NCBI GenBank assembly: GCA_017882185.1
Contig: JADGQA010000004.1
Coordinates: 1 to 41,283 of the forward strand
Length of the DNA: 41,283 nucleotides
From: Bacteroidota bacterium
GTDB taxonomy: Bacteria; Bacteroidota; Ignavibacteria; UBA10030
Direction: 5' to 3'
Every line of letters begins with the position of its first letter. Positions within the stretch are counted from its first letter, which is position 1. The translations under genes and the position numbers were made by a program. Positions 25,124-41,192 of this stretch are shown here, piece after piece. Below the pieces are notes generated by a model. It had not been told where the DNA came from and searched no databases. It saw only the letters and a list, made by a program, of their open reading frames with translations.

Positions 25124-25152
25124 TTGACAAACACTGTAACAACTTCTATATT
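25124..25152 (+). promoter_or_regulatory. sigma70-type promoter of the envelope operon
   Basis: TTGACA (25124-25129), 17-nt spacer, TATATT (25147-25152); same hexamers and spacing as at 4522-4550. Confidence 0.82.
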
Positions 25153-25199: not shown

Positions 25200-25217
25200 A
25201 AAAGGAGGTGAATCCAG
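25200..25217 (+). promoter_or_regulatory. Extended Shine-Dalgarno / 16S 3'-end complement
   Basis: AAAAGGAGGTGAATCCAG matches AAAGGAGGTGATCCAG (reverse complement of the conserved 16S 3' end) apart from one inserted A; 9 nt from GGAGG to ATG 25218. Confidence 0.7.
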
Positions 25218-25283
25218 ATGCTCGTGCAAGTTGTTCTTCGGGGGCGCGAGCGAATAGACCTTGTGAACACTTTACTCACCTAA
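25218..25283 (+). CDS. Putative 21-aa leader peptide
   Basis: ATG...TAA translating MLVQVVLRGRERIDLVNTLLT*, directly behind the extended SD. Too short for the ORF track. Confidence 0.45.
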   Translation: MLVQVVLRGRERIDLVNTLLT

Positions 25284-25456: not shown

Positions 25457-26185
25457 ATGAAACATTCTGCAATGTTGAAGTTCGTTGTAATGATGTCTGC
25501 TGTCTTGGCTCTCTATCTGGGAGGTTGTGTCGAAGTGAACAACCCGGAATTCAGTCCAACCGATTTTCGTTCGATCGTGAAGTTCGTCAACCTCGCCAAT
25601 ACGGGGAGTTCGATGGTTGTGAATATCGACAAGAGTACTACAGCAACCGCAACCGTCGCTTTTCAAGGCGCGTCGTCGTATCTCAGCTTGCCGTCAGGGA
25701 CCCGGTTTTTTTCGTTTACCTACGGTGCGGCCAACGATACACTGCGGCAGCCGTTGACGCCGAACTACAAGTACACATTTTTCAGTGTGTATGAACCTAC
25801 AAATGGCGATGCAGCCAGAACGTATGTTCGCGCCAGTGAAAGAACAACGTACACCGGTGCGGTAGCGTCTGTGGCTGGTGCTCAATTGGTTCGATTCTAC
25901 AATATGTCCTCTGATACGGCGGTTGAGGTGAGCGGCGGATTAACATTTCACCTCATAACTGCGTCCTCGGATACTTCCAACCAAAGTCCGTTGTCCTTCA
26001 TGGGAAACTCCGCGTACTATTCCGCTCCGACTGCAGGCAGTCCTCAGTTTACGGTGGTCGGATCTGACGGAAGCACTCTGGTGGCGGCAACGGCAGTCGG
26101 CTCGGGAGATGGACGTTTTGGCGTGGTGTTTTCAGGCTCGAAGGCGGCAAGTTCTTGGTCGGCAATAGTATTTAAAGAAGATTAA
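25457..26185 (+). CDS. Lipoprotein, DUF4397-like
   Basis: 242 aa; signal peptide with lipobox (LALYLGGC); SIVKFVNLANTGSSMVVNIDK...YLSLPSGTRFFSFTYG and RFYNMSSDTAVEV repeats resemble DUF4397. Family call from memory. Confidence 0.65.
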   Translation: MKHSAMLKFVVMMSAVLALYLGGCVEVNNPEFSPTDFRSIVKFVNLANTGSSMVVNIDKSTTATATVAFQGASSYLSLPSGTRFFSFTYGAANDTLRQPLTPNYKYTFFSVYEPTNGDAARTYVRASERTTYTGAVASVAGAQLVRFYNMSSDTAVEVSGGLTFHLITASSDTSNQSPLSFMGNSAYYSAPTAGSPQFTVVGSDGSTLVAATAVGSGDGRFGVVFSGSKAASSWSAIVFKED

Positions 26186-26196
26186 AGGAGGACAGA

Positions 26197-29154
26197 ATGA
26201 TGAAACGATATAGTATAGCACTGTTCTTGCTCGTCGCGATCTCGGTTTCCGCATTTGCCCAATACGGAAAAATCACCGGACAAGTCACGGATCGCGAGAC
26301 AAAAGAGCCGTTGATCGGAGCGAACGTTATTCTTGAAGGAACGGCTCTGGGCGCTTCCACAGATGTGAACGGTAATTATTCAATTCTCAACGTATCGGCC
26401 GGCTCCTATAATCTGAGGACGACCTACGTAGGATATCAGCCTACGACAATCTCCAGCGTCAGTGTCGTTTCCGGACTGACGAGAGAATTGAACGTTCAAC
26501 TCGCATCGACGGCAGTCCAATTGAATGCGGTTGAGATTATCGCTACGCGACCATTGATCGAAAAGACCGCTACGAACGCAGTCCGTATTACTACTACCGA
26601 TGATATTAAGAATCTTCCCATCCGCGGTGTGCAGGGATATTTCTCGTTGCAGCCGGGTGTGGTCGTGTCGAACGGCATTGCCTATGTTCGCGGCAGTCGA
26701 CAGGATGAAGTCGGTTACATGATTGACGGAGCAAATGTTAAAGACATTGTCAGCAGCTCGGCGAAGACCAGCGAAACCAACAATCCAGGTTCTCTTGTGA
26801 CAGTAATTCCGGAGGCCTTGCAGGAAATCGCGGTTCAAGCTGGAGGCTACGGTGCTGAGCTTGGCGGTGCAAACGCAGGTATTGTATCACAGACATTGAG
26901 AACGGGAGGATCGAAATTAAACGTTACGCTCCAGGGTGAAACGGACAATTTCGGCAATTATCCCGGAAAAAAAGCACTCGGCGCATATTCAAGCGGGTAT
27001 TCAGATTATGTTGCAACAGTTTCTCTTCCCGTTATGTCCGACAAAATTAAGCTCTTCGTTGCTGGTGAGAATAACTTCGTTCGAGACCGTGCACCGACGT
27101 TTTTTTCGGGAGCGGATTTGGGTTACTACTATGACAACGGCCTTTCCGGCGGACACAAAGGCGACTCCGTGTTGATGCAGTGGCCGGCCGGAAATGTCCT
27201 TGGCCGCATGAACAACCGCTTCACCTCAAACGGCACGTTGTTGTTTGATTTTCTGCCACTTCAGGTTCGACTGGGAGGTGCTTTCACGTGGGCACGCAAC
27301 AAGAACAACGGCACCATCAATAATTACTTTGATCTTGGAAGACTTGGCGTAGGTGACAACAGCAACCTTCTGTTGAATGGCAAGTTTAATTACTTCTTCA
27401 CACCGAAGACGTTCGCAGAAGTAAACATCAACTACCTCGATCAACGGAACAAGTCATACGATCCTGCCTTTGGGGAAAACGTCCTGGCCTATGGCGACAG
27501 TGTGACGAACTCGCAGCACGGGTATAACTTTGTCACGCTAACAGCGGGTCCCCAAAACTACAATTTCAATGGATTTACGTTCAATCGCCCGGGAACCCCT
27601 TTGCAAGCCTTTACCAAGGACCTCACCACGCATATGTCCGGTAGTGCGGCCCTCACATCGCAGATGGAGAACCATTCCTTGAACCTTGGCGGTTCGTATG
27701 AGTATTGGAGCGTTTCGCACTACGGGATTGGTACAGGTGTGTATTCTGCAATGCTCACAGACCCGAATGCGGCGCGCGATGCCAGTGCTATTGCCCTCAT
27801 CATGAGGTCCCAGTTGTTCGTCAACAACTATGGGTTTGATGAATTTGGGAACCCTCTCACCAGCGGTGCTGATGGGCCGAAACATCCGTATTTCGCAGCA
27901 GGGTACATTCAGGATCGCATTGAATTCAGCGACCTGAACATCAATGCTGGATTGAGATATGACGTGATGAATTTTGATGACTGGACATACAACAATCCAC
28001 AAGATCTGGGTTACGATTTGGCCAATTATGTGATCTCGACCCCGGGAAAGGCAAAGACATATTCCTATCTTGAGCCGCGCCTCGGTTTCTCGTTCCCGGC
28101 TTCGGACAAGACAGTCTTCCACATGCAGTACGGAAAATTCGTCCAGGCTCCGCCGTTGTATACCACGTACGTATCCAGGGCGAATGCACTACGATACTTG
28201 GCGGGTGGAAACTTTTTCCTCAGTCCGATTGGCTATAACATAGCGCCAGTAAGGACGACACAGTATGAAATAGGATTTTCGCAACAGTTCACCGACGCGG
28301 CGGCTTTTGACATCACGGGATTCTACAAGAACACGGAAGGGCAATTACAGTACGCGTTCTTCCCGCAGGACCCAAGCTCGCTCGTGCCTTCATTCTACGC
28401 CTACACGAACGGGGACTTTGAGACCGTAGCAGGATTGGAAATCAGCATTCACGTTCGCAGAACGAACAGGATCATGGCTGAGGTCAATTATACGTTACAG
28501 GACGCTCGTGGAACGAACTCGTTTGCGAATAGCGGAAATGGTCTATCACAAGTTGCCGGCAACACAATCAAGCCGAGCATGGTGGTTCCTCTGGATTATG
28601 CGGAGACTCACCGTGGATCGGTGTCATTGGACTACCGGTGGGATAAAGGGGATGGCGGTCTAATCCTTGAGCGTTTGGGCGTTAATCTCCTGTTTACGTT
28701 CAATTCGGGTCATCCATTTACGCTTGCAAATGGATCGGCGGGTCAACAAGGGCCTGATCTCGGCGGAATTCTGAATAACCAGGATTCGCGATCGCGCTTT
28801 CCGGCCGAACCCATCGGTGCTTCCACGACTCCGTGGTTTTACCAGCTCGACCTTCGCATCGACAAGACGATTTCGCTCTCCGTGGTCGACTTGAACATCT
28901 ATGCTTACGTTCAAAATCTTCTGAACACGAAGAATGTTATCAACGTGTACTACAGGACTGGAAATGCGTATGACGATGGCTGGTTGAGCGATGCAGTCGC
29001 AAGCGGCAAGTCCGTCGAACAATACGGAGCAAAGTATGTCGCGCTATACCAGGTGATGAATCTGCAAGACAATCAAAACCAGATACGGACGAATGGATTC
29101 AGCAACTTTGGAATGCCGCGGCAGGTACGAGTGGGTGCAAAGATCGAATTCTAA
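26197..29154 (+). CDS. TonB-dependent receptor with N-terminal carboxypeptidase-regulatory-like domain
   Basis: 985 aa; signal peptide, GKITGQVTDRETKEPLIGANVILEGTALGASTDVNGNYSILNVSAGSYNLRTTYVGYQP, plug GGYGAELGGANAGIVSQTLRTGG, C-terminal aromatic strand RQVRVGAKIEF. Confidence 0.92.
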   Translation: MMKRYSIALFLLVAISVSAFAQYGKITGQVTDRETKEPLIGANVILEGTALGASTDVNGNYSILNVSAGSYNLRTTYVGYQPTTISSVSVVSGLTRELNVQLASTAVQLNAVEIIATRPLIEKTATNAVRITTTDDIKNLPIRGVQGYFSLQPGVVVSNGIAYVRGSRQDEVGYMIDGANVKDIVSSSAKTSETNNPGSLVTVIPEALQEIAVQAGGYGAELGGANAGIVSQTLRTGGSKLNVTLQGETDNFGNYPGKKALGAYSSGYSDYVATVSLPVMSDKIKLFVAGENNFVRDRAPTFFSGADLGYYYDNGLSGGHKGDSVLMQWPAGNVLGRMNNRFTSNGTLLFDFLPLQVRLGGAFTWARNKNNGTINNYFDLGRLGVGDNSNLLLNGKFNYFFTPKTFAEVNINYLDQRNKSYDPAFGENVLAYGDSVTNSQHGYNFVTLTAGPQNYNFNGFTFNRPGTPLQAFTKDLTTHMSGSAALTSQMENHSLNLGGSYEYWSVSHYGIGTGVYSAMLTDPNAARDASAIALIMRSQLFVNNYGFDEFGNPLTSGADGPKHPYFAAGYIQDRIEFSDLNINAGLRYDVMNFDDWTYNNPQDLGYDLANYVISTPGKAKTYSYLEPRLGFSFPASDKTVFHMQYGKFVQAPPLYTTYVSRANALRYLAGGNFFLSPIGYNIAPVRTTQYEIGFSQQFTDAAAFDITGFYKNTEGQLQYAFFPQDPSSLVPSFYAYTNGDFETVAGLEISIHVRRTNRIMAEVNYTLQDARGTNSFANSGNGLSQVAGNTIKPSMVVPLDYAETHRGSVSLDYRWDKGDGGLILERLGVNLLFTFNSGHPFTLANGSAGQQGPDLGGILNNQDSRSRFPAEPIGASTTPWFYQLDLRIDKTISLSVVDLNIYAYVQNLLNTKNVINVYYRTGNAYDDGWLSDAVASGKSVEQYGAKYVALYQVMNLQDNQNQIRTNGFSNFGMPRQVRVGAKIEF

Positions 29155-29196
29155 GTATTTTGAACAGGAATTTCTAACACACAGGAGATTGCCATT

Positions 29197-32100
29197 ATGA
29201 AATCTCGTATAAAAGTAACGGTTCTGTTCTTTGCCATGCTTTTGATGGTGATTCCTTCGCCGGCGAAAGAGAAGCCGGGGACGAAGAAAGGGCTATCCAA
29301 GGTAACAGCAGGACAACCGTATGTTGTCATGAATGGAAACAATCAGACAGCCTGGTTTCGGAGTGACGGCTTCTTCCCTCAGATCGTATCCCAATCCTGG
29401 AACGGGGAGTTTCCCAGAGGGTGTGGTGTGGGCGATATTTACCAGGAAGGAGTCGTCTTTGGCGGATTCGTGACCGATGGGTTGTTTACAAATTCGCTCC
29501 GAGTAACAGGAGACACATACTTTATTGGTATGCAACCGGGTGCGATGAATGCCGATGGCACCGTGAATGCAGGCGATGCTGGCGACGCGGGTTCAAGGGC
29601 ATTTCAAGTTCGCGGCGACATGCCCCTCTCTGTCCAAAGTGATCCGACACAATGGCCGGATTTAGGGCCAGACGCCGCTTCGTATTTTCAGGTACCGCAG
29701 CCAAGCGTATCCGACGGCCAAAAGACCCAGATTGCAACCCAGTATTTTACTGACTGGAAAGAATGGCCCGCTGCGAAAGGTGCGCCGTGGTATATCGATT
29801 CGGTGAAACAGGTGAGATACGATGCCGCCTATGATTACACCAATCCTCATGATATTCCCGGTATTCCTGGGGCAACAAAGACAATCTGGTTCGTGTGCAA
29901 TGATGCGACCGCATCTGTCACGGGACCATTTGCAGGGTCGCCCCCCATCGGAATGGAAGAACAGAGCACATTGTGGTCCTATGCGTCGTCGACGCCGTTG
30001 AATAATATCATTTTCAAGCAGGTAAAGCTGATTTACAAAGGAAATCCGGGTTCTCCGGCAAATTCCGAGATCGACAGCATGTTTGTCGTTCAGTGGTCGG
30101 ACCCTGATAATGGTGATTCCGGCGACGATTATGCCGGCTCGGATTCGTTGCTGAATCTCAACTATGTGTACAATTCCAAGACCATTGACGCGAAGTATGC
30201 GGCGGTTGGTCTACCCTGCCCGGCAGTTGGGTATGTTTTTCTGCAGGGAGTGTCGCACTACACAGGGAATGCGGCCGACAGTGCGATCCTTGATTTCCGT
30301 ACACAGCATGGATACAAGTATTGGCACGAGCGAAATGGGCTATCTACTCCGATGACATCCGCGTGTTATTTTGCGTCGGGAACAGTGATATCTGACCCTG
30401 ATAACGCTGATTACGCTGGAACACAACAATGGTATAACCTGATGCGTGGCGATTTGCCCCGCCCGGCATATCCTGCGGGTATTCCATTCTACAAATCTTC
30501 GACATATGCGGTAGACAACGGTATAGTAACAAATTATATTTTGTCTGGCGATCCCACGACCGGTCAAGGATGGATTGATGGACTTGATTTATCGACAGGT
30601 GACCGCAGACTTGTTACAGTCCACGGTCCAATTACGATGAAGAAAGGAGATACTGCTGAAGTGGTCATTGCGCTGCTCTCCGGTCTGGGGGCAGACAATA
30701 TCGGCAGCGTGAAGGTATTGAAGTATAACGTGGGTTATGCCCAATTTGCCTTCAACAATAACTTCAACTTACCGACCCCTCCGCCAAGTCCGAGGACATC
30801 GGTTTCACAGTTGGACGGCAAGGTTGTTCTAAACTGGGGCGCAGACGCCAACAGTGTGAATACCATTGAGTCCAGTGATAACAATGGGTTTGCGTTTGAA
30901 GGGTACAATGTCTATCAACTCCCGTCCCCAAGCTCCACAATAGACCAGGGAGTGCGCATTGCAACGTATGATATCGTTGATAACGTGACCGTCATTGTGG
31001 CTCCTGCGTTGGATCAGACAACGGGTGTCATTGTGACGAAACCGGTCGAGTTCGGTAGCGACAAAGGGATATCAAGGTCGTTAGTTCTGACAAAGGATTA
31101 TTTGAAGCAGGGACCGTTGGTCAACGGCGCTGTGTATTATTTTGCCGTAACCTCGTACTCCTACAATCCAAACTGGAACAATCCTGTATCCGTATTCCAG
31201 GCACCGTTCCCATCACTCGAAAGTTCACCGGTCCCACTCGTTGTAGAGCCGGCGGCTACGAAGCCTGGAGTGCGTTTTGGAGCAGGAGGAGGTGACTCAT
31301 TGCACGTCAGTCATACCAACACACTCGGTGGGGCTGTCAGCGATGGATCCGTAACAGCCGTTGTCCTACAGCCCGATCAATTGACTGGCGACACTTACAA
31401 TGTGACGTTCGATGCAGCTGGCGGATGGAGCATCATTGATGTCACAAAGGGTAACACTGTCAAGCTTACCGGGACAAATCAAGCCGGTGATGCCAACTAT
31501 CTTACGGTAGATGGCGTTCAGGTTATCGTTGCTGGTCCTCCTCCAGGTATGAAAGGCTATACGTGGACTCCAGCTGCGCAGCGTTTCTGGACGTTCACCA
31601 ATGGTGTGTGGGGTTCAGAGGGATTCGGTGGGGCAATCGGCAACGCGTTCGATCAATGGTTCTCGGGCTCGACGGTGACGTATGACAAGTTGAAGAACAC
31701 CGAAATACGGTTTGCCACAACGGATGCCTCTGGCAACATTCTGGATCCGAATGATGCAAATGCATCTTACGCTTATCGGTATATGCGTGCGGCAACCGCA
31801 GCACCAGCTCGCCCTTCGTTCACTCCATTTATCATCAATCCCACGGCTGGGTATGCCTACCAGGATTACAACAAATCGATGCCGATAGCGGCGTATGATA
31901 TTGAAGCAGCAACGCCACGACGGTTGATGGTGGGGTATCTTGAAGACAACAAAATAAACGGCTTGGTGGACGGAAAATACTGGCCTCCGTATGCTGCCGA
32001 TACGACAAACTATGGTAGTGCTACCGATGGGACAGTTGGAGATAATATCGGGGCAAATGGTCCTCGTGAGTGGTTCTACATCTTTGATGTCGACTACAGC

Positions 32101-32628
32101 ACGACCCCGGATCCGGTACTGCAGGATGATATCCTCGACGTGACATTGCCGATCATGTGGTTTGGCACCATTACAAGAAGGACTACCACCGCTTGGAGGT
32201 CTAATAATGTCATGGAGATCCTTGCCAACCATATCAATACGGCCGATGATGTGTTCACGTTTACCGCCCCTGCGCCGACGTTCAGCACGGCGACGGCTCA
32301 GGCAGACGTGAACAAGATCAACGTCTTCCCGAACCCATACTACGGTGTCAATCCAAACGAGACGAACCGTCTGGGCAAGTATGTTCGGTTCACTCATCTT
32401 CCGGGTGGTGCGACAATCCGCATCTTTACACTGGCAGGTGTTCTCGTCAGGACTCTTCCAACAACGGACGGGACTTCGACGTTTACTGATTGGAACCTGA
32501 GGAACGAGAACAGTCTCCCAGTAGCGAGCGGCGTATACATCGCATTCATTGATATGCCCAGCTTGGGAAAAACCAAGACGCTGAAGATTGCGATTGTTCA
32601 GGAAGAACAAATACTACCAACATATTAA
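29197..32628 (+). CDS. Large secreted protein with T9SS/FlgD-like C-terminal domain
   Basis: 1143 aa; signal peptide; C-terminus NVFPNPYYGVNPNETNRLGKYVRFTHLPGGATIRIFTLAGVLVRTL...WNLRNENSLPVASGVYIAFIDMPSLGKTKTLKIAIVQEE. Confidence 0.75.
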   Translation: MKSRIKVTVLFFAMLLMVIPSPAKEKPGTKKGLSKVTAGQPYVVMNGNNQTAWFRSDGFFPQIVSQSWNGEFPRGCGVGDIYQEGVVFGGFVTDGLFTNSLRVTGDTYFIGMQPGAMNADGTVNAGDAGDAGSRAFQVRGDMPLSVQSDPTQWPDLGPDAASYFQVPQPSVSDGQKTQIATQYFTDWKEWPAAKGAPWYIDSVKQVRYDAAYDYTNPHDIPGIPGATKTIWFVCNDATASVTGPFAGSPPIGMEEQSTLWSYASSTPLNNIIFKQVKLIYKGNPGSPANSEIDSMFVVQWSDPDNGDSGDDYAGSDSLLNLNYVYNSKTIDAKYAAVGLPCPAVGYVFLQGVSHYTGNAADSAILDFRTQHGYKYWHERNGLSTPMTSACYFASGTVISDPDNADYAGTQQWYNLMRGDLPRPAYPAGIPFYKSSTYAVDNGIVTNYILSGDPTTGQGWIDGLDLSTGDRRLVTVHGPITMKKGDTAEVVIALLSGLGADNIGSVKVLKYNVGYAQFAFNNNFNLPTPPPSPRTSVSQLDGKVVLNWGADANSVNTIESSDNNGFAFEGYNVYQLPSPSSTIDQGVRIATYDIVDNVTVIVAPALDQTTGVIVTKPVEFGSDKGISRSLVLTKDYLKQGPLVNGAVYYFAVTSYSYNPNWNNPVSVFQAPFPSLESSPVPLVVEPAATKPGVRFGAGGGDSLHVSHTNTLGGAVSDGSVTAVVLQPDQLTGDTYNVTFDAAGGWSIIDVTKGNTVKLTGTNQAGDANYLTVDGVQVIVAGPPPGMKGYTWTPAAQRFWTFTNGVWGSEGFGGAIGNAFDQWFSGSTVTYDKLKNTEIRFATTDASGNILDPNDANASYAYRYMRAATAAPARPSFTPFIINPTAGYAYQDYNKSMPIAAYDIEAATPRRLMVGYLEDNKINGLVDGKYWPPYAADTTNYGSATDGTVGDNIGANGPREWFYIFDVDYSTTPDPVLQDDILDVTLPIMWFGTITRRTTTAWRSNNVMEILANHINTADDVFTFTAPAPTFSTATAQADVNKINVFPNPYYGVNPNETNRLGKYVRFTHLPGGATIRIFTLAGVLVRTLPTTDGTSTFTDWNLRNENSLPVASGVYIAFIDMPSLGKTKTLKIAIVQEEQILPTY

Positions 32629-32687
32629 CGTGAGTACTGCGAGGTCATTGTGTGTCGCCTCCAACTACTAACAAGGAGCGAAAAATT

Positions 32688-33719
32688 ATGAAGAAGAATG
32701 TAATGCTGGTTGTCTTGGGTGTATGCACCATCCTGCTTGGCACCGCATCTGCGTTCGCGCAGACGAAGGCCGGGCTGTCGGCGGCGCCTGAACTGACGAT
32801 CCCTGTCGGCGCTCGGTATGTTGCCACGTCGGGTGCAAACATCTCCAGTGTCTCCGGGGTCGATGCCATTACCTGGAATCCGGCTGGTCTCGATGCAGGG
32901 AGTGGAAGCAGCGCGCTGTTCTCCTATCGGCAATACATCGCTGATATCAATATAAGTTACGTTGCTCTCGCGACCAAGATCGAGGGGGTCGGGTCACTAG
33001 GGTTGTCCCTCCGCTCGTTCAACATTGGGACCATCCCTGTTACGACGGTGCAACAACCGGACGGCAATGGCCAGGAGATCAGCCCATCGTTTTTCACGCT
33101 CGGTCTGACTTATTCGAAGCAATTGTCTGACCGCGTTGGATTTGGTGTAAATCTCAACGTGGTGAGCGAGAGTTTCGGAGGAGTCTCGGCGAGCGGTCTC
33201 GCGTTTGATGCCGGTGTGCAGTATAAAAACCTCATCGGCGTTGAAGGTTTGGCGCTCGGCGTTACCGTGAGAAATATCGGAACATCGATGCAGTATGGAG
33301 GCTCCAGTTTGTGGGTGCAGGCAAGTGATCCAAATGCCGCCCGCGGATTGAGCTACTACAAAGTCGAAGCTGCTAGTTTCCAAATGCCCTCGGTCATCGA
33401 TCTTGGAGTTGGTTACGCCAAGCCAATCGATGAAGACAATAGCCTGAGGATCAGTGTAGCATATGAAAACGATAACTACGGCATTGACGGATATCGAGTT
33501 GGTGGTGAGTATAACTTCCAAAATTCGATATTCATTCGCGCCGGGTATCTCTACAGCACTGATGTTTCGGGGACAGTCTCGATTTTCCAGAACTACACGC
33601 TAGGAGCGGGTATCAATCTTGAGAAATACGCAGGTATCGGCATTAGCGTTGACTATGCCTACGTTCCTGTGAAGTATTTTTCGGCGAATAATCTGATTGA
33701 CATACGCATGAATTTCTAG
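32688..33719 (+). CDS. PorV/PorQ family outer-membrane beta-barrel protein
   Basis: Starts MKKNVMLVVLGVCTILLGTASAFAQTKAG; VGARYVATSGANISSVSGVDAITWNPAGLD is PorV/UPF0164-like. ATG 32688 has SD aaggag; track opens at 32652. Confidence 0.82.
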   Translation: MKKNVMLVVLGVCTILLGTASAFAQTKAGLSAAPELTIPVGARYVATSGANISSVSGVDAITWNPAGLDAGSGSSALFSYRQYIADINISYVALATKIEGVGSLGLSLRSFNIGTIPVTTVQQPDGNGQEISPSFFTLGLTYSKQLSDRVGFGVNLNVVSESFGGVSASGLAFDAGVQYKNLIGVEGLALGVTVRNIGTSMQYGGSSLWVQASDPNAARGLSYYKVEAASFQMPSVIDLGVGYAKPIDEDNSLRISVAYENDNYGIDGYRVGGEYNFQNSIFIRAGYLYSTDVSGTVSIFQNYTLGAGINLEKYAGIGISVDYAYVPVKYFSANNLIDIRMNF

Positions 33720-33742
33720 CAGAACAAACCCCTCTATCTAAG

Positions 33743-33779
33743 ACCGCCAGTAAGGACTCTCTTGCTGGCGGTTTTTTTT
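33743..33779 (+). terminator. Rho-independent terminator after the PorV-like gene
   Basis: ACCGCCAGTAAG-GACTCT-CTTGCTGGCGGT followed by TTTTTTT; 12-bp stem with one wobble. Confidence 0.93.
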
Positions 33780-34059: not shown

Positions 34060-35427
34060 ATGAAAAAGACTCTTTTCCTCTTCCTTGCTATCGCCCTTTT
34101 GCAGTCGCTCAGTATTGGACAACAGTATCGTCCTCACGGAGCCTTCGCCTTCAACGCTGATTTTGCCCGATTTCGATACGATTCCACATCCTCCTATGTA
34201 GAGGTCTACTATGGTTTGTATCCGCGGCTCCTGAGCTTTAGTCAAGTTGATAGCGTTTACAAAGGAATGGTCATCGTCAGGACGGTTATTCGCAAGAAAG
34301 GTGCAGACTCAACCGTGCTGGATCAGCGATTGCTCATCCCGGTTACGATTGCAGACACAACATTCCGGAATGTGAATACGACATTCGTCACGCAGACATC
34401 GTATGCGGTGCCTTTCGGGGATTATGTCCTGGAGGTCGCAGCACACGATTCACTTCAGCCGACAATGCGCGATTCGGTGAGTTATTCGCTCACAGTTCAC
34501 TGGTTCCCTTCCTCTGCGGCATCGAGTGACCTGGAGCTCTGTTCAGAAGTCAGTAGCGGGACACACCAATCGAAGTTGTTCGAGAAGAATTCACTTGAGG
34601 TCATACCAAATCCTTCCCTGGTGTTTGGGGTGACATCACATCCCGTTTCATTCTACTACCTGGAACTATACAATCTCCATCCCGATTCTGCATATACCAT
34701 CAAGGTGCGTCTCTATGATGGAACGAACAAGGTCGTTCGTGAAGCAACGAAGAGTCAGAAGTATTCGGCAAAAGACGTTGTTGACGTGGGCATGATGAAT
34801 GTCTCATCATTCCCTTCAGGACGGTATCGAATAGGCGTATCCGTGTATGATCAGGCAGGCACAGAAGTGTGCGGTTCGGCAAAAACACTCTTTCTGAGCA
34901 ATCCGCATATCAAACAACCGGCCGTCGGTGCAGGGACCCTGAACGCAACTGAGTTTGCAGGAATGACGTCGGATGAATTGTCGCAAGAATTTCGCGAAGC
35001 CCAATACCTGGCGTCACAGGATGAAACAAAAAGGTTCAAACAAATGAGCACGCAGGAAGCGAAGCGTGATTTCCTGGCAAAATTCTGGGCCGATGTCGAA
35101 CATGGTCAGGACGGAAGGAAACAGATGGACAGGAATGTATTCCTCCATCGAGTTACCGTGGCGAATCAGCGATATCGCGGGATGGGCAAGGAAGGTTGGC
35201 AAACGGATCGTGGTAGGGTATATCTCCTCTACGGAGAGCCCGAAGAAGTGGAACGATTCCCGAGCGGCCAAGACTCCAAGCCGTACGAAATCTGGCACTA
35301 CTATCAAATCGAGAGTGGTGTGGAATTCGATTTCATCGATCGTTCCGGGTTTGGCAACTATGTCCTTACCAACTCGACCAAACGTGGTGAAATTCAAGAT
35401 GCTGGATGGCAACAGTACTTGCACTAA
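34060..35427 (+). CDS. GWxTD domain-containing protein
   Basis: 455 aa; signal peptide; KEGWQTDRGRVYLLYGEPEEVERFPSGQDSKPYEIWHYYQIESGVEFDFIDRSGFGNY matches the GWxTD family. Confidence 0.88.
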   Translation: MKKTLFLFLAIALLQSLSIGQQYRPHGAFAFNADFARFRYDSTSSYVEVYYGLYPRLLSFSQVDSVYKGMVIVRTVIRKKGADSTVLDQRLLIPVTIADTTFRNVNTTFVTQTSYAVPFGDYVLEVAAHDSLQPTMRDSVSYSLTVHWFPSSAASSDLELCSEVSSGTHQSKLFEKNSLEVIPNPSLVFGVTSHPVSFYYLELYNLHPDSAYTIKVRLYDGTNKVVREATKSQKYSAKDVVDVGMMNVSSFPSGRYRIGVSVYDQAGTEVCGSAKTLFLSNPHIKQPAVGAGTLNATEFAGMTSDELSQEFREAQYLASQDETKRFKQMSTQEAKRDFLAKFWADVEHGQDGRKQMDRNVFLHRVTVANQRYRGMGKEGWQTDRGRVYLLYGEPEEVERFPSGQDSKPYEIWHYYQIESGVEFDFIDRSGFGNYVLTNSTKRGEIQDAGWQQYLH

Positions 35428-36287
35428 TCTGCATATTCCTCGCTGGGAGTGGCAGCACGGCGCCTCCTGCAGACACACTGTTTGTTTCTGAGACTTCATT
35501 TGGATCGTTTGAGCAGGCCACCCGCATAACCGTCAGTCCGGAGGGGAAGGTCTACGTCATTGATTCCAAAAGGAATGCCGTCTTAATTTATAAGTCCCCT
35601 CAAGACTCTCCGTCAGTGCTGGGCGGCTATGGTTGGACCGCTACAACGTTCGACAGGCCCACAGGCGTTGCAACGGATGGTCTCAATATTTACGTTTCAG
35701 ACTACGGCAACCACCGCATTCAACGATTCGATCGGTATTCCAATCTCCTTTCCTCCCTATTTACACGCGACTCGACGTATGCGCCAGCACGGTTTGGCTA
35801 TCCCGCTGGCGTTGAACTTTCAAATCAAGGCGACTTAATAATCCTCGATTCAGAGAATCTGAGGATCGTCGAATTCTCATCTGATTCGAGGTTCGAGAGG
35901 AGTTTTGGTGACCTCAACAAAGCTGGAGGCAAGCTCCAGAATCCCGTAAAAGTCTGTTCTGAAGGAGATCAATACGTTTATGTGTTGGAGAAGAACAAAA
36001 TCCTCGAATTTGATTTTTATGGCAACTATCTTCGATCCTTCGCGCAAGATCTTCACAGCGATATTGTCGGCGGGCAGTCCACTCCCGACGGGATCGCGGC
36101 TGTTAGTGCGGATACGTTGTTTTGGTACAACGTAGATGGTACGGTTGGGTCGGAAACGCCCTTGAGAACGCTTCTGGCCGAAGAACCCATCGTGTCTGTG
36201 ACAGACATTGCGTTCTTCGGCAACCGCATGTTTGTTCTCACTCCCCATCGATGCCACATTTTCAAGTTAGAACCCGTCTATCATTAG
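35406..36287 (+). CDS. NHL-repeat / 6-bladed beta-propeller-like secreted protein
   Basis: 293 aa; blades such as ITVSPEGKVYVIDSKRNAVLIYK, RPTGVATDGLNIYVSDYGNHRIQRFD, YPAGVELSNQGDLIILDSENLRIVEF; overlaps the upstream gene by 22 nt. Confidence 0.82.
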   Translation: MATVLALICIFLAGSGSTAPPADTLFVSETSFGSFEQATRITVSPEGKVYVIDSKRNAVLIYKSPQDSPSVLGGYGWTATTFDRPTGVATDGLNIYVSDYGNHRIQRFDRYSNLLSSLFTRDSTYAPARFGYPAGVELSNQGDLIILDSENLRIVEFSSDSRFERSFGDLNKAGGKLQNPVKVCSEGDQYVYVLEKNKILEFDFYGNYLRSFAQDLHSDIVGGQSTPDGIAAVSADTLFWYNVDGTVGSETPLRTLLAEEPIVSVTDIAFFGNRMFVLTPHRCHIFKLEPVYH

Positions 36288-38902: not shown

Positions 38903-38954
38903 ACTTGCATGTTCCACCTAAGTTTTGTATCGTAGACCCACGCAACTGTTCTTT

Positions 38955-39146
38955 TCAATAACCGTGATGGTGTCCCGCCCAAACCGATTGGTTTACGCGG
39001 GATGAAAAGGGAATTCCGTTTGCAACATATTCGGAAGCTGCCCCGCAACTGTAAGTGAGGAGATCTGAATTGCACGTCACTGTGGTTTTTCAACCACGGG
39101 AAGACATTCAGGCGAACCAACACTCACGAGCCAGGAGACCTGCCAT
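38955..39146 (+). promoter_or_regulatory. Cobalamin (adenosylcobalamin-type) riboswitch
   Basis: Conserved core: AAAAGGGAATTCCG...CGGAAGCTGCCCCGCAACTGTAAGTG...CCACGGGAAGAC...CACTCACGAGCCAGGAGACCTGCC. Confidence 0.95.
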
Positions 39147-39208
39147 TACAAGCCACCAAGATACCTTCGCGGGAAGGTGCTTACTCGACTATAGACTTCG
39201 CAGTCATG

Positions 39209-39263: not shown

Positions 39264-41192
39264 ATGAGCGGATTGACCAAAATGGTTCTCTGGTGCGTGT
39301 TTCCGGTTCTTGCGTTCGGACAGGAATTTCGGACGGATTCTGCGAAGACGTACAAAACGGAAGAAGTCGTCGTGACCGCAACAAGGAGTGCGATCTCTGA
39401 AAAGGATGCTCCGTCTCCAACAGAAGTGCTTGGAGCCAGGGAGATTAGGAACGCAAATGGGGTCACCGTTGCGGATGCTCTCCAGACTTACACTGGAATT
39501 TTGCTCAGGGAGTATGGAGCGGGTGCATCCTTGGCAACGGTATCATTAAGGGGCTCTGCATCAGAACATGTACTGGTGCTGATAGACGGGAATCGGTTCA
39601 CAGGTTTCCAAAATGGCCTCGTGGACTTCAGTCTGTTGCCCCTCGACAATGTCTCTCGTATAGAAATACTCCACGGTGGTGCATCTGCGCTCTACGGCGC
39701 CGATGCAGTTGGGGGAGTGATCAACATTCTCACGCGCCCGGTCGGAACCGACTTTCACGTGAATGCTAAAGGCTCAATCGGTTCCTATGGCTTTCAACGA
39801 TATTCGGCTCTTGCCCAGGGAGGATCCGGCGGTTTGGGTATCGTCGCGGGCTATTCCAACGAACGTGGGAAAGACAATTATCCGTTCTCCTTCCATCGTC
39901 CGAATACTCCTGATACGAGCATTGACCGCGTGGATGCAGATTACCGGAAGAATGAACTCTATATCAATGGAAATCTGAACACTGATGAGTACTCTTCCTT
40001 GAGTCTCTCTGTCCAAAATGTCAACGCTGATCGCGGGTCTCCCGGTCCGATTTATAGTGCGAGCGATCGGAGCCTCGCCAAGGAAAACGACAAAAACGTC
40101 AATATCCACCTTGGATATCGCGACGACCGGATTTCTGGGACGGAACTCTCACTCAACACCGGATATCAATACAGTTACGAGACGTATGTGGATCCTGCGT
40201 ATTTGATGAATTCTTTCTACAAGAACCTCCTGGTGAGCCTGAATCCTCAGTTCCAGGCGATCCTGACTGCGGAAGACAGACTGATCGCGGGCGGTGAGTT
40301 TGTGCAGGGCATACTTGAAGGAAATGACTTCGGCGCACGAATTCAGCGAACACAAACATCGGTCTATCTTTCAAACGAGTACGCCGATGAGACCGCGCGG
40401 CCCATGTTCGATCGGATTTCGCTGTTCCAGACGCTGCGGTATGATCATTTTTCCGATGTTGGTCACGCGTTGACGCCCAAAGTGGGCTTCAATCTCAGAA
40501 TGATCCGCACCGGCGATGTCCGCCTGCGCGCCAGCTTCGGGCAAAGCTACCGCGCACCGTCGTTCAACGATCTCTATTACGTTCCGTTCAACAATCGGGA
40601 ACTTCAGCCTGAGCATTCTCAAAGCTTCGATGCCGGTGTACTTGCGCGTGGTGTGTTGTGGGGGGAGCATTCGATCGAGGCAACCTATTTCAGTGCTACC
40701 ACGAAAGACCGAATAGTATTCGATCCTGTGAGTTATGTTCCTGTTAACATCGGCAAGACAGTCTCTCAGGGGGTCGAATCCTCGTACCGGGGTGAATTGA
40801 TGGACGGAACCGCTGAAATCGTCCTTAGTTACACCTACACGGATGCCAGGAAAAGGAATAGTTCATCAACAACTGATTCGACGTTCAACAAACAGTTGGC
40901 ATTTATTCCTCAGAATCTATTTAAGGCCGTTCTTTCACTTCATCTCCAACCGTTCACGATTAATATGTTCCGCCTCTTCACGGGTGTGCGGCCGGTCAAT
41001 GAAGACAATACGGAGTCGCTTCCTTCATATTCTCTCACGAACGCGAACATTGTGGCAAGCGTACCATTCGGGCCCTGGGAGGTTTCGGCAAAAGTAGAAG
41101 TGGACAATGTCTTCAACGTCCAGTATCAGGTCTATCCTGCTTACCCAATGCCTGGGAGAACGTATAAGCTGGACGTCGGCGTGGAATATTGA
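39264..41192 (+). CDS. btuB: TonB-dependent vitamin B12 receptor, BtuB-like
   Basis: 642 aa; TonB box EEVVVTATR, plug VSLRGSASEHVLVLIDGNRF...RIEILHGGASALYGADAVGGVINILTR; downstream of cobalamin riboswitch; terminal strand YKLDVGVEY. Confidence 0.9.
   Translation: MSGLTKMVLWCVFPVLAFGQEFRTDSAKTYKTEEVVVTATRSAISEKDAPSPTEVLGAREIRNANGVTVADALQTYTGILLREYGAGASLATVSLRGSASEHVLVLIDGNRFTGFQNGLVDFSLLPLDNVSRIEILHGGASALYGADAVGGVINILTRPVGTDFHVNAKGSIGSYGFQRYSALAQGGSGGLGIVAGYSNERGKDNYPFSFHRPNTPDTSIDRVDADYRKNELYINGNLNTDEYSSLSLSVQNVNADRGSPGPIYSASDRSLAKENDKNVNIHLGYRDDRISGTELSLNTGYQYSYETYVDPAYLMNSFYKNLLVSLNPQFQAILTAEDRLIAGGEFVQGILEGNDFGARIQRTQTSVYLSNEYADETARPMFDRISLFQTLRYDHFSDVGHALTPKVGFNLRMIRTGDVRLRASFGQSYRAPSFNDLYYVPFNNRELQPEHSQSFDAGVLARGVLWGEHSIEATYFSATTKDRIVFDPVSYVPVNIGKTVSQGVESSYRGELMDGTAEIVLSYTYTDARKRNSSSTTDSTFNKQLAFIPQNLFKAVLSLHLQPFTINMFRLFTGVRPVNEDNTESLPSYSLTNANIVASVPFGPWEVSAKVEVDNVFNVQYQVYPAYPMPGRTYKLDVGVEY

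Follow-up and report, generated by a model that had tools for sequence, protein, structure and literature searches.

Genes of the operon

The DNA analyzed here is a stretch of 41,283 nucleotides from a Bacteroidota bacterium (Ignavibacteria, UBA10030; contig JADGQA010000004.1 of GenBank assembly GCA_017882185.1), hereafter called the window, in which positions 25457-33719 carry four genes transcribed in the same direction. An earlier note, made from the sequence alone, had described them as an envelope operon for a lipoprotein, a TonB-dependent receptor (TBDR), a 1143-residue secreted protein with a C-terminal domain (CTD) for the type IX secretion system (T9SS), and a PorV-like barrel. The comparisons described below indicate that a short peptide at the very end of the 1143-residue protein, referred to as the tag, is coupled in evolution to the adjacent barrel gene. 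The genes and the domains under study are as follows.

25457-26185, + strand: DUF4397 lipoprotein (LP), 242 aa, accessory gene; open reading frame (ORF) confirmed
26197-29154, + strand: TBDR, 985 aa; ORF confirmed
29197-32628, + strand: CTD protein, 1143 aa, predicted T9SS C-terminal-domain surface protein; ORF confirmed
29308-30780, + strand: N-terminal domain of the CTD protein, residues 38-528, predicted beta-supersandwich; AlphaFold2 predicted local distance difference test (pLDDT) 91.7, predicted template-modelling score (pTM) 0.93
32299-32625, + strand: type A-like T9SS sorting domain of the CTD protein, residues 1035-1143; assigned by profile matches and invariant residues
32584-32625, + strand: C-terminal tag, residues 1130-1143, KIAIVQEEQILPTY-COOH; conserved extension in members linked to POR
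32688-33719, + strand: POR, PorV/PorQ-family outer-membrane barrel, 343 aa; alternative GTG start at 32652

All the domains of a CarboxypepD_reg-type TonB receptor, as proposed in the earlier note, were detected in the TBDR over the Pfam cut-offs: CarbopepD_reg_2 (PF13715; 2e-21), Plug (PF07715; 2.2e-5, 25.4 bits against a cut-off of 23.9) and the barrel (PF00593; 3.8e-19, 70.3 bits against 27). The SusC/RagA model TIGR04056 was matched by the N-terminal part only and below its cut-off (68 bits against 368), and SusD/RagB (PF07980) was found neither in the operon nor in the whole genome, a control genome being positive. The distinction from SusCD drawn previously thus holds for both the receptor and its partner. 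A SusD hidden in the lipoprotein was also ruled out, the lipoprotein being a DUF4397 protein.

POR scored 160.7 bits with the PorV/PorQ family model NF033709 (cut-off 90), which was matched by all 23 homologues examined, and the PorV-like barrel was thereby confirmed; its sequence profile matched the PorV chain 6h3i_F with 6e-21. The scores stayed below the cut-offs of the equivalog models for PorV (NF033710; 81 bits against 250) and PorQ (NF033711; 83.5 against 220), and also below that of the PorP/SprF model TIGR03519 (15.9 bits against 90.55). In a comparison with nine other PorV-family proteins from the genome, among them the PorV encoded beside PorU, the POR proteins grouped as a single, separate clan. 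Judging from these profiles, POR is a member of the PorV/PorQ family that is neither PorV nor PorQ proper.

The lipoprotein carries a lipobox, LGGC, with the cysteine (Cys24) invariant in 14 homologues. The window protein itself falls short of the DUF4397 model (PF14344; 29.3 bits, cut-off 30.6), which is matched by 14 of 14 homologues (best 1.5e-18). Its gene is located directly 5' of the TBDR gene in 23 loci.

The family of the CTD protein was detected in all 61 genomes of relatives (40 genera, six families), often in multiple copies, and in 57 of 198 genomes sampled over the phylum (45 of 103 genera). The order TBDR-CTD protein-POR is fixed, with TBDR directly 5' and POR directly 3' in 66 of 94 members, and POR immediately follows the CTD gene in 70 of 94 members under one criterion and in 73 of 95 under a corrected one. 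The median gaps in conserved loci are 30 nt between TBDR and CTD protein and 23 nt between CTD protein and POR. The unit is therefore a three-gene core, to which the lipoprotein is an optional fourth gene: the four-gene order expected from the earlier note is conserved as far as this core is concerned, and the lipoprotein partner is not a constant one. The pairwise distances among TBDR, CTD protein and POR correlate strongly (r 0.74-0.82), as expected for a jointly inherited unit. A scan of named genomes found the CTD family in metagenome-assembled genomes (MAGs) deposited as Ignavibacteria, Calditrichota, KSB1, Marinimicrobia, Gemmatimonadetes, Latescibacteria and others, the phylum labels being those of the deposits. 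Two near-identical loci (L101 and L104) were deposited as Gemmatimonadetes and Latescibacterota, and at least one of these MAG labels is probably wrong.

Sorting domain, tag and fold of the CTD protein

The CTD protein of the window gave no Pfam match over its 1143 residues; its sorting domain scored 14.7 bits with TIGR04183 (cut-off 23) and was below the cut-off of Por_Secre_tail. Among 18 homologous sorting domains, 14 matched Por_Secre_tail (PF18962; best 7.6e-6) and 11 matched FlgD_ig, and hhalign aligned the domain with the genome's own canonical sorting domains (probability 94, E 1e-7), in support of the T9SS/FlgD-like C-terminus noticed earlier. The C-terminus of the protein also matches that of the PorZ model (1.8e-10). 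A PNP motif, a glycine, a tryptophan and Lys1130 are invariant, and C-terminal strands are present in the AlphaFold2 model. In solved translocons, PorV is contacted by a lysine that lies near the C-terminus of type A domains and hardly varies among them (PMC10994853). From these sequence features the domain is predicted to direct T9SS-dependent secretion of the CTD protein.

T9SS core genes are present in the genome, in line with such a substrate: SprA was detected on two contigs (598 and 404 bits), the PorU gene (858 bits) adjoins that of the canonical PorV, and 77 Por_Secre_tail matches were found. SprA was also detected in all 26 of the distant genomes tested that have the module, in 25 of them over the cut-off. 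Within the phylum sample of 198 genomes, SprA was present in 57 of 57 family-positive genomes versus 97 of 141 family-negative ones; the Fisher value of 7e-8 is indicative only, because the genomes are kin and many of the negatives come from a single family.

In POR-linked members, the sorting domain runs from the invariant lysine into the extension K-L-A-[IV]-[IV]-Q-E-Q-Q-[IVF]-L-x-x-[YFW]-COOH. By frame-wise search with hidden Markov models, the terminal aromatic residue was found in 71 of 73 POR-linked members versus one of 19 unlinked ones (Fisher 6e-16, with members treated as unrelated though they are kin). Of the two POR-linked exceptions, L063 keeps the motif and ends in Leu, and L154 has a broken frame; the only unlinked member with a terminal aromatic, L161, is otherwise without the motif. 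To allow for the kinship of members, a tree was built from the N-terminal domain. On this tree the linkage to POR changes about eight times, at least seven of these changes being required by branches with good support, and lineages unlinked to POR lack the full tag. The contrast is also seen between paralogues of a single genome, where L059 has both tag and POR versus L061 with a canonical KMVLLK tail and no POR, and again between the two copies in L157; in addition, L148 ends in a canonical sorting tail that is above the Pfam cut-off. Taken from sequence comparison, the evolutionary coupling of tag and POR gene is well supported, and the suggestion that the barrel may serve its 1143-residue neighbour gains support, as the tag comes and goes with the barrel gene. 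The last residues of the chain are of low confidence in the AlphaFold2 model, which fits a peptide requiring a partner but does not show it.

The beta-signal of outer-membrane proteins has an aromatic end and a hydrophobic residue at position -3. The tag was considered as such a signal for the beta-barrel assembly machinery (BAM) and rejected, since its position -3 is polar (D/E/K in 53 of 70). In KSB1 MAGs (loci L136, L150 and L161), two to four CTD-protein genes stand in tandem, with neither POR nor tag.

The genome of the window also contains strongly diverged operons for a TBDR, a CTD-type protein and a PorV-family protein on contigs C269 (L078) and C156 (L080), and pairs of a CTD-type protein and a PorV-family protein on C287 (L077) and C67 (L083). 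All four CTD-type proteins have short canonical tails without the extension, indicating that the tag is confined to the present family, whereas CTD-type proteins are paired with PorV-like barrels more widely in this genome.

The AlphaFold2 model of the CTD protein, made with 61 homologues, has a mean pLDDT of 86.7. The best fold match of the whole model in the PDB is PorZ (E 2e-8), with PorU also listed; whole-chain template-modelling (TM) scores are low, because the proteins compared consist of beta domains in series. By Foldseek, the N-terminal domain matched enzymes of the glycoside hydrolase (GH) types GH15, GH116 and GH94 (best E 4.4e-8, probability 1.00, TM to query 0.38). Strand content and additional matches to galactose mutarotase suggest that the alignment falls on the supersandwich domain of these enzymes. 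No (alpha/alpha)6 catalytic barrel is present in the predicted chain, and a sequence search with the N-terminal domain found no solved relative. Its conserved acidic loops (W300, D302, D304, G306, D310, D311 and D316) suggest calcium sites.

Control signals and neighbouring genes

Two further features flank the four genes.

25124-25152, + strand: promoter-like site TTGACA-17-TATATT, 11 of 12 consensus matches
33740-33775, + strand: intrinsic terminator-like hairpin, 16-pair stem, 4-base loop and T-run

The intergenic gaps are 11, 42 and 23 nt for the ORFs as called, with POR starting at GTG 32652. The ATG at 32688 behind AAGGAG is the more likely start, in which case the last gap is 59 nt. The promoter motif is kept ahead of the lipoprotein gene in three related genomes (L057, L059 and L062), and the hairpin is the strongest terminator-like structure in the region. 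With short gaps, a conserved promoter-like site and a terminator-like hairpin around four confirmed genes, the claim of a single operon stands.

A free-standing Shine-Dalgarno-like element, AAGGAGG(T), was observed in the leader (25200-25283) and likewise in L057, L059 and L062. It is located 150-255 nt 5' of the lipoprotein start and no start codon is conserved behind it; the window has a 21-aa ORF at this place. The element resembles mRNA-stabilizing leader elements of Bacillus. A structured RNA in the leader of the operon was also considered and rejected, as the only Rfam match was a cobalamin riboswitch located elsewhere. This riboswitch (106 bits) is at 38951-39161, ahead of a BtuB-like TonB receptor at 39264-41192, and the two represent ordinary control of B12 uptake.

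A PIG-L-like protein of approximately 630-810 aa is encoded directly downstream of POR in 17 loci (L063, L073, L118, L125, L156 and 12 others). Its HPDDE-type zinc motif is degenerate, reading xPGxED in most of those read, and by this motif the protein is possibly a pseudo-deacetylase linked to the module. In the window, GWxTD-domain and NHL-repeat proteins are encoded at 34060-36287; they occur downstream of POR in 19 and 17 other loci, respectively, and may belong to a wider unit in this lineage. A polysaccharide utilization locus is unsupported, the neighbours being ribosomal genes, GWxTD, NHL, gamma-glutamyltransferase and the BtuB-like receptor.

Proposed mechanism and comparison with known systems

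We consider it probable, with considerable reserve, that the CTD protein has in POR a T9SS carrier and surface anchor of its own, and that it is in turn a SusD-like capture partner of the receptor. The CTD protein would cross the inner membrane via Sec and the outer membrane via the SprA/Sov translocon. Its tagged type A-like domain, with the lysine followed by Q-E-Q-Q-hydrophobic-L-x-x-aromatic, would then be taken by POR instead of the general PorV. By analogy with PorQ and PorZ, POR might remain bound to the uncleaved CTD and so anchor the protein on the surface, where the beta-supersandwich domain would capture a ligand, possibly a glycan or glycoconjugate, and hand it to the adjacent receptor for TonB-driven import, the job of SusD in SusCD. 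The glycan ligand is the weakest step, suggested by the predicted fold and by the PIG-L-like neighbour in the 17 other loci. The proposal of a carrier and anchor leans on precedents, namely the type B cargo with PorP/SprF carriers, PG1035 with PorP, and the pairs PorU:PorV and PorQ:PorZ. For the coordinated uptake or export suggested in the earlier note, an uptake receptor with a T9SS-exported surface partner is the best reading, its last step being one that we infer.

Several observations weigh against this mechanism. Protein contact, location and ligand are all reached by inference. The member L123 retains most of the tag without an adjacent POR, and L110 keeps part of it. The N-terminal domain matches glycan-active enzymes only in part (TM to query 0.38, identity 7-10%), and the neighbours of the operon within the window are not carbohydrate genes. 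In addition, the relative Melioribacter roseus carries a SusCDE operon (PMC3534657), and the module is therefore not a class-wide substitute for SusCD.

The coupling of tag and POR involves just the CTD protein and its barrel, and some CTD proteins occur without a receptor, in tandem or solitary (L136, L150 and L061), as would be expected if the two were only cargo and carrier, the CTD protein acting alone as an adhesin, coat protein or enzyme and the receptor being merely co-expressed. We regard this as rather unlikely: of 70 POR-linked members, 66 have the receptor gene directly 5' of that for the CTD protein and three more are at contig edges, the receptor distances follow those of the other two proteins, and the receptor-less members are mostly also POR-less. 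That the three genes are kept together by descent and not by function is very unlikely; shared descent alone preserves order among close relatives, but the order persists down to about 31-32% protein identity and across MAGs labelled as several phyla, and tag and POR were lost jointly about eight times, including in paralogues of one genome.

A second T9SS attachment complex, in which a PorZ/PorQ-like pair processes or anchors other cargo, with a glycolipid or precursor moved for it by the receptor, would agree with PorZ as the best structural match of the whole model and PorU as a further one, with the C-terminal sequence similarity to the PorZ model, and with the constant co-occurrence of T9SS with the family. 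It is nonetheless improbable, because the sequence match to PorZ is confined to the C-terminal domain, 97 of 154 SprA-positive genomes are without the family, which is thus not needed for T9SS, and many genomes contain several divergent copies. An accessory of outer-membrane biogenesis could be modelled on the BAM of Bacteroidota, in which the FadL-like BamG, together with BamH, holds a canopy outside the cell (PMC12611786), and weak matches to the BamG model were indeed given by six of 23 POR proteins. Such a role is extremely unlikely, as POR scores far higher with the PorV/PorQ models, the family has a T9SS sorting domain and, unlike an essential part of BAM, it is missing in 141 of the 198 genomes sampled over the phylum.

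Type A cargo of T9SS is thought to use one general carrier, PorV (PMC12618676). Returning to POR as a dedicated carrier, we tentatively put forward a broader statement, which we place somewhat short of probable, that an extended type A signal with a C-terminal aromatic tag and private PorV-family carriers, permanently anchoring a large receptor protein of supersandwich type on a TonB importer, form a T9SS-built counterpart of SusCD in several lineages of the Fibrobacteres-Chlorobi-Bacteroidetes (FCB) group, often in multiple copies. If true, the choice of carrier could be written in a C-terminal peptide, a compact and directly testable recognition code, and T9SS would be linked with TonB-dependent uptake in lineages whose envelopes have hardly been studied by experiment. 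It would also give a first functional idea for a family of about 1,100 aa that has no Pfam model and is found in 45 of the 103 phylum genera sampled.

The literature searched, in which most subscription papers were not included, contains no description of the TBDR-CTD protein-POR combination or of the tag. The parts are of known kinds; within that literature the combination and the tag are new, and we regard the module as a variant form of T9SS cargo/carrier pair that comes with a TonB receptor.

The closest arrangement is that of the type B cargo with cognate PorP/SprF carriers encoded adjacently, as in F. johnsoniae and in P. gingivalis, where PG1035 is held by PorP. In both cases the gene of a T9SS substrate is followed by that of its own carrier, and in the type B pairs the carrier anchors the substrate and sets its final location (PMC12618676, PMC9143113). 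In the module, tag and carrier are lost in a correlated way, and a dependence of secretion or anchoring on POR is predicted. The module differs in three respects: it has a type A-like sorting domain that ends in a conserved extension, its carrier belongs to the PorV/PorQ family, and it includes a TonB receptor.

PorU pairs stably with PorV, and PorZ with PorQ; both PorU and PorZ keep their CTDs (PMC5562754). A PorV/PorQ-family barrel holding a CTD-retaining surface protein is what we propose for the module too, and the structure of the whole CTD protein is matched best by PorZ. Outside its C-terminal domain, however, the CTD protein is unrelated to PorZ by sequence, its scores are below the PorZ and PorU equivalog models, and it is encoded in a receptor operon and dispensable for T9SS in many genomes. 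GH15/GH116/GH94-type supersandwich enzymes resemble the predicted fold of residues 38-528, but differ in the (alpha/alpha)6 barrel, which the CTD protein model lacks, and in sequence, no similarity to solved members being detected. With SusCD, the module shares a CarboxypepD-type TonB receptor encoded alongside a partner, which is surface-exposed in SusCD and predicted to be so here. It contains no SusD domain and its receptor is below the SusC model, and whereas the partner in SusCD is a lipoprotein, the partner proposed here would be exported by T9SS and anchored by a barrel.
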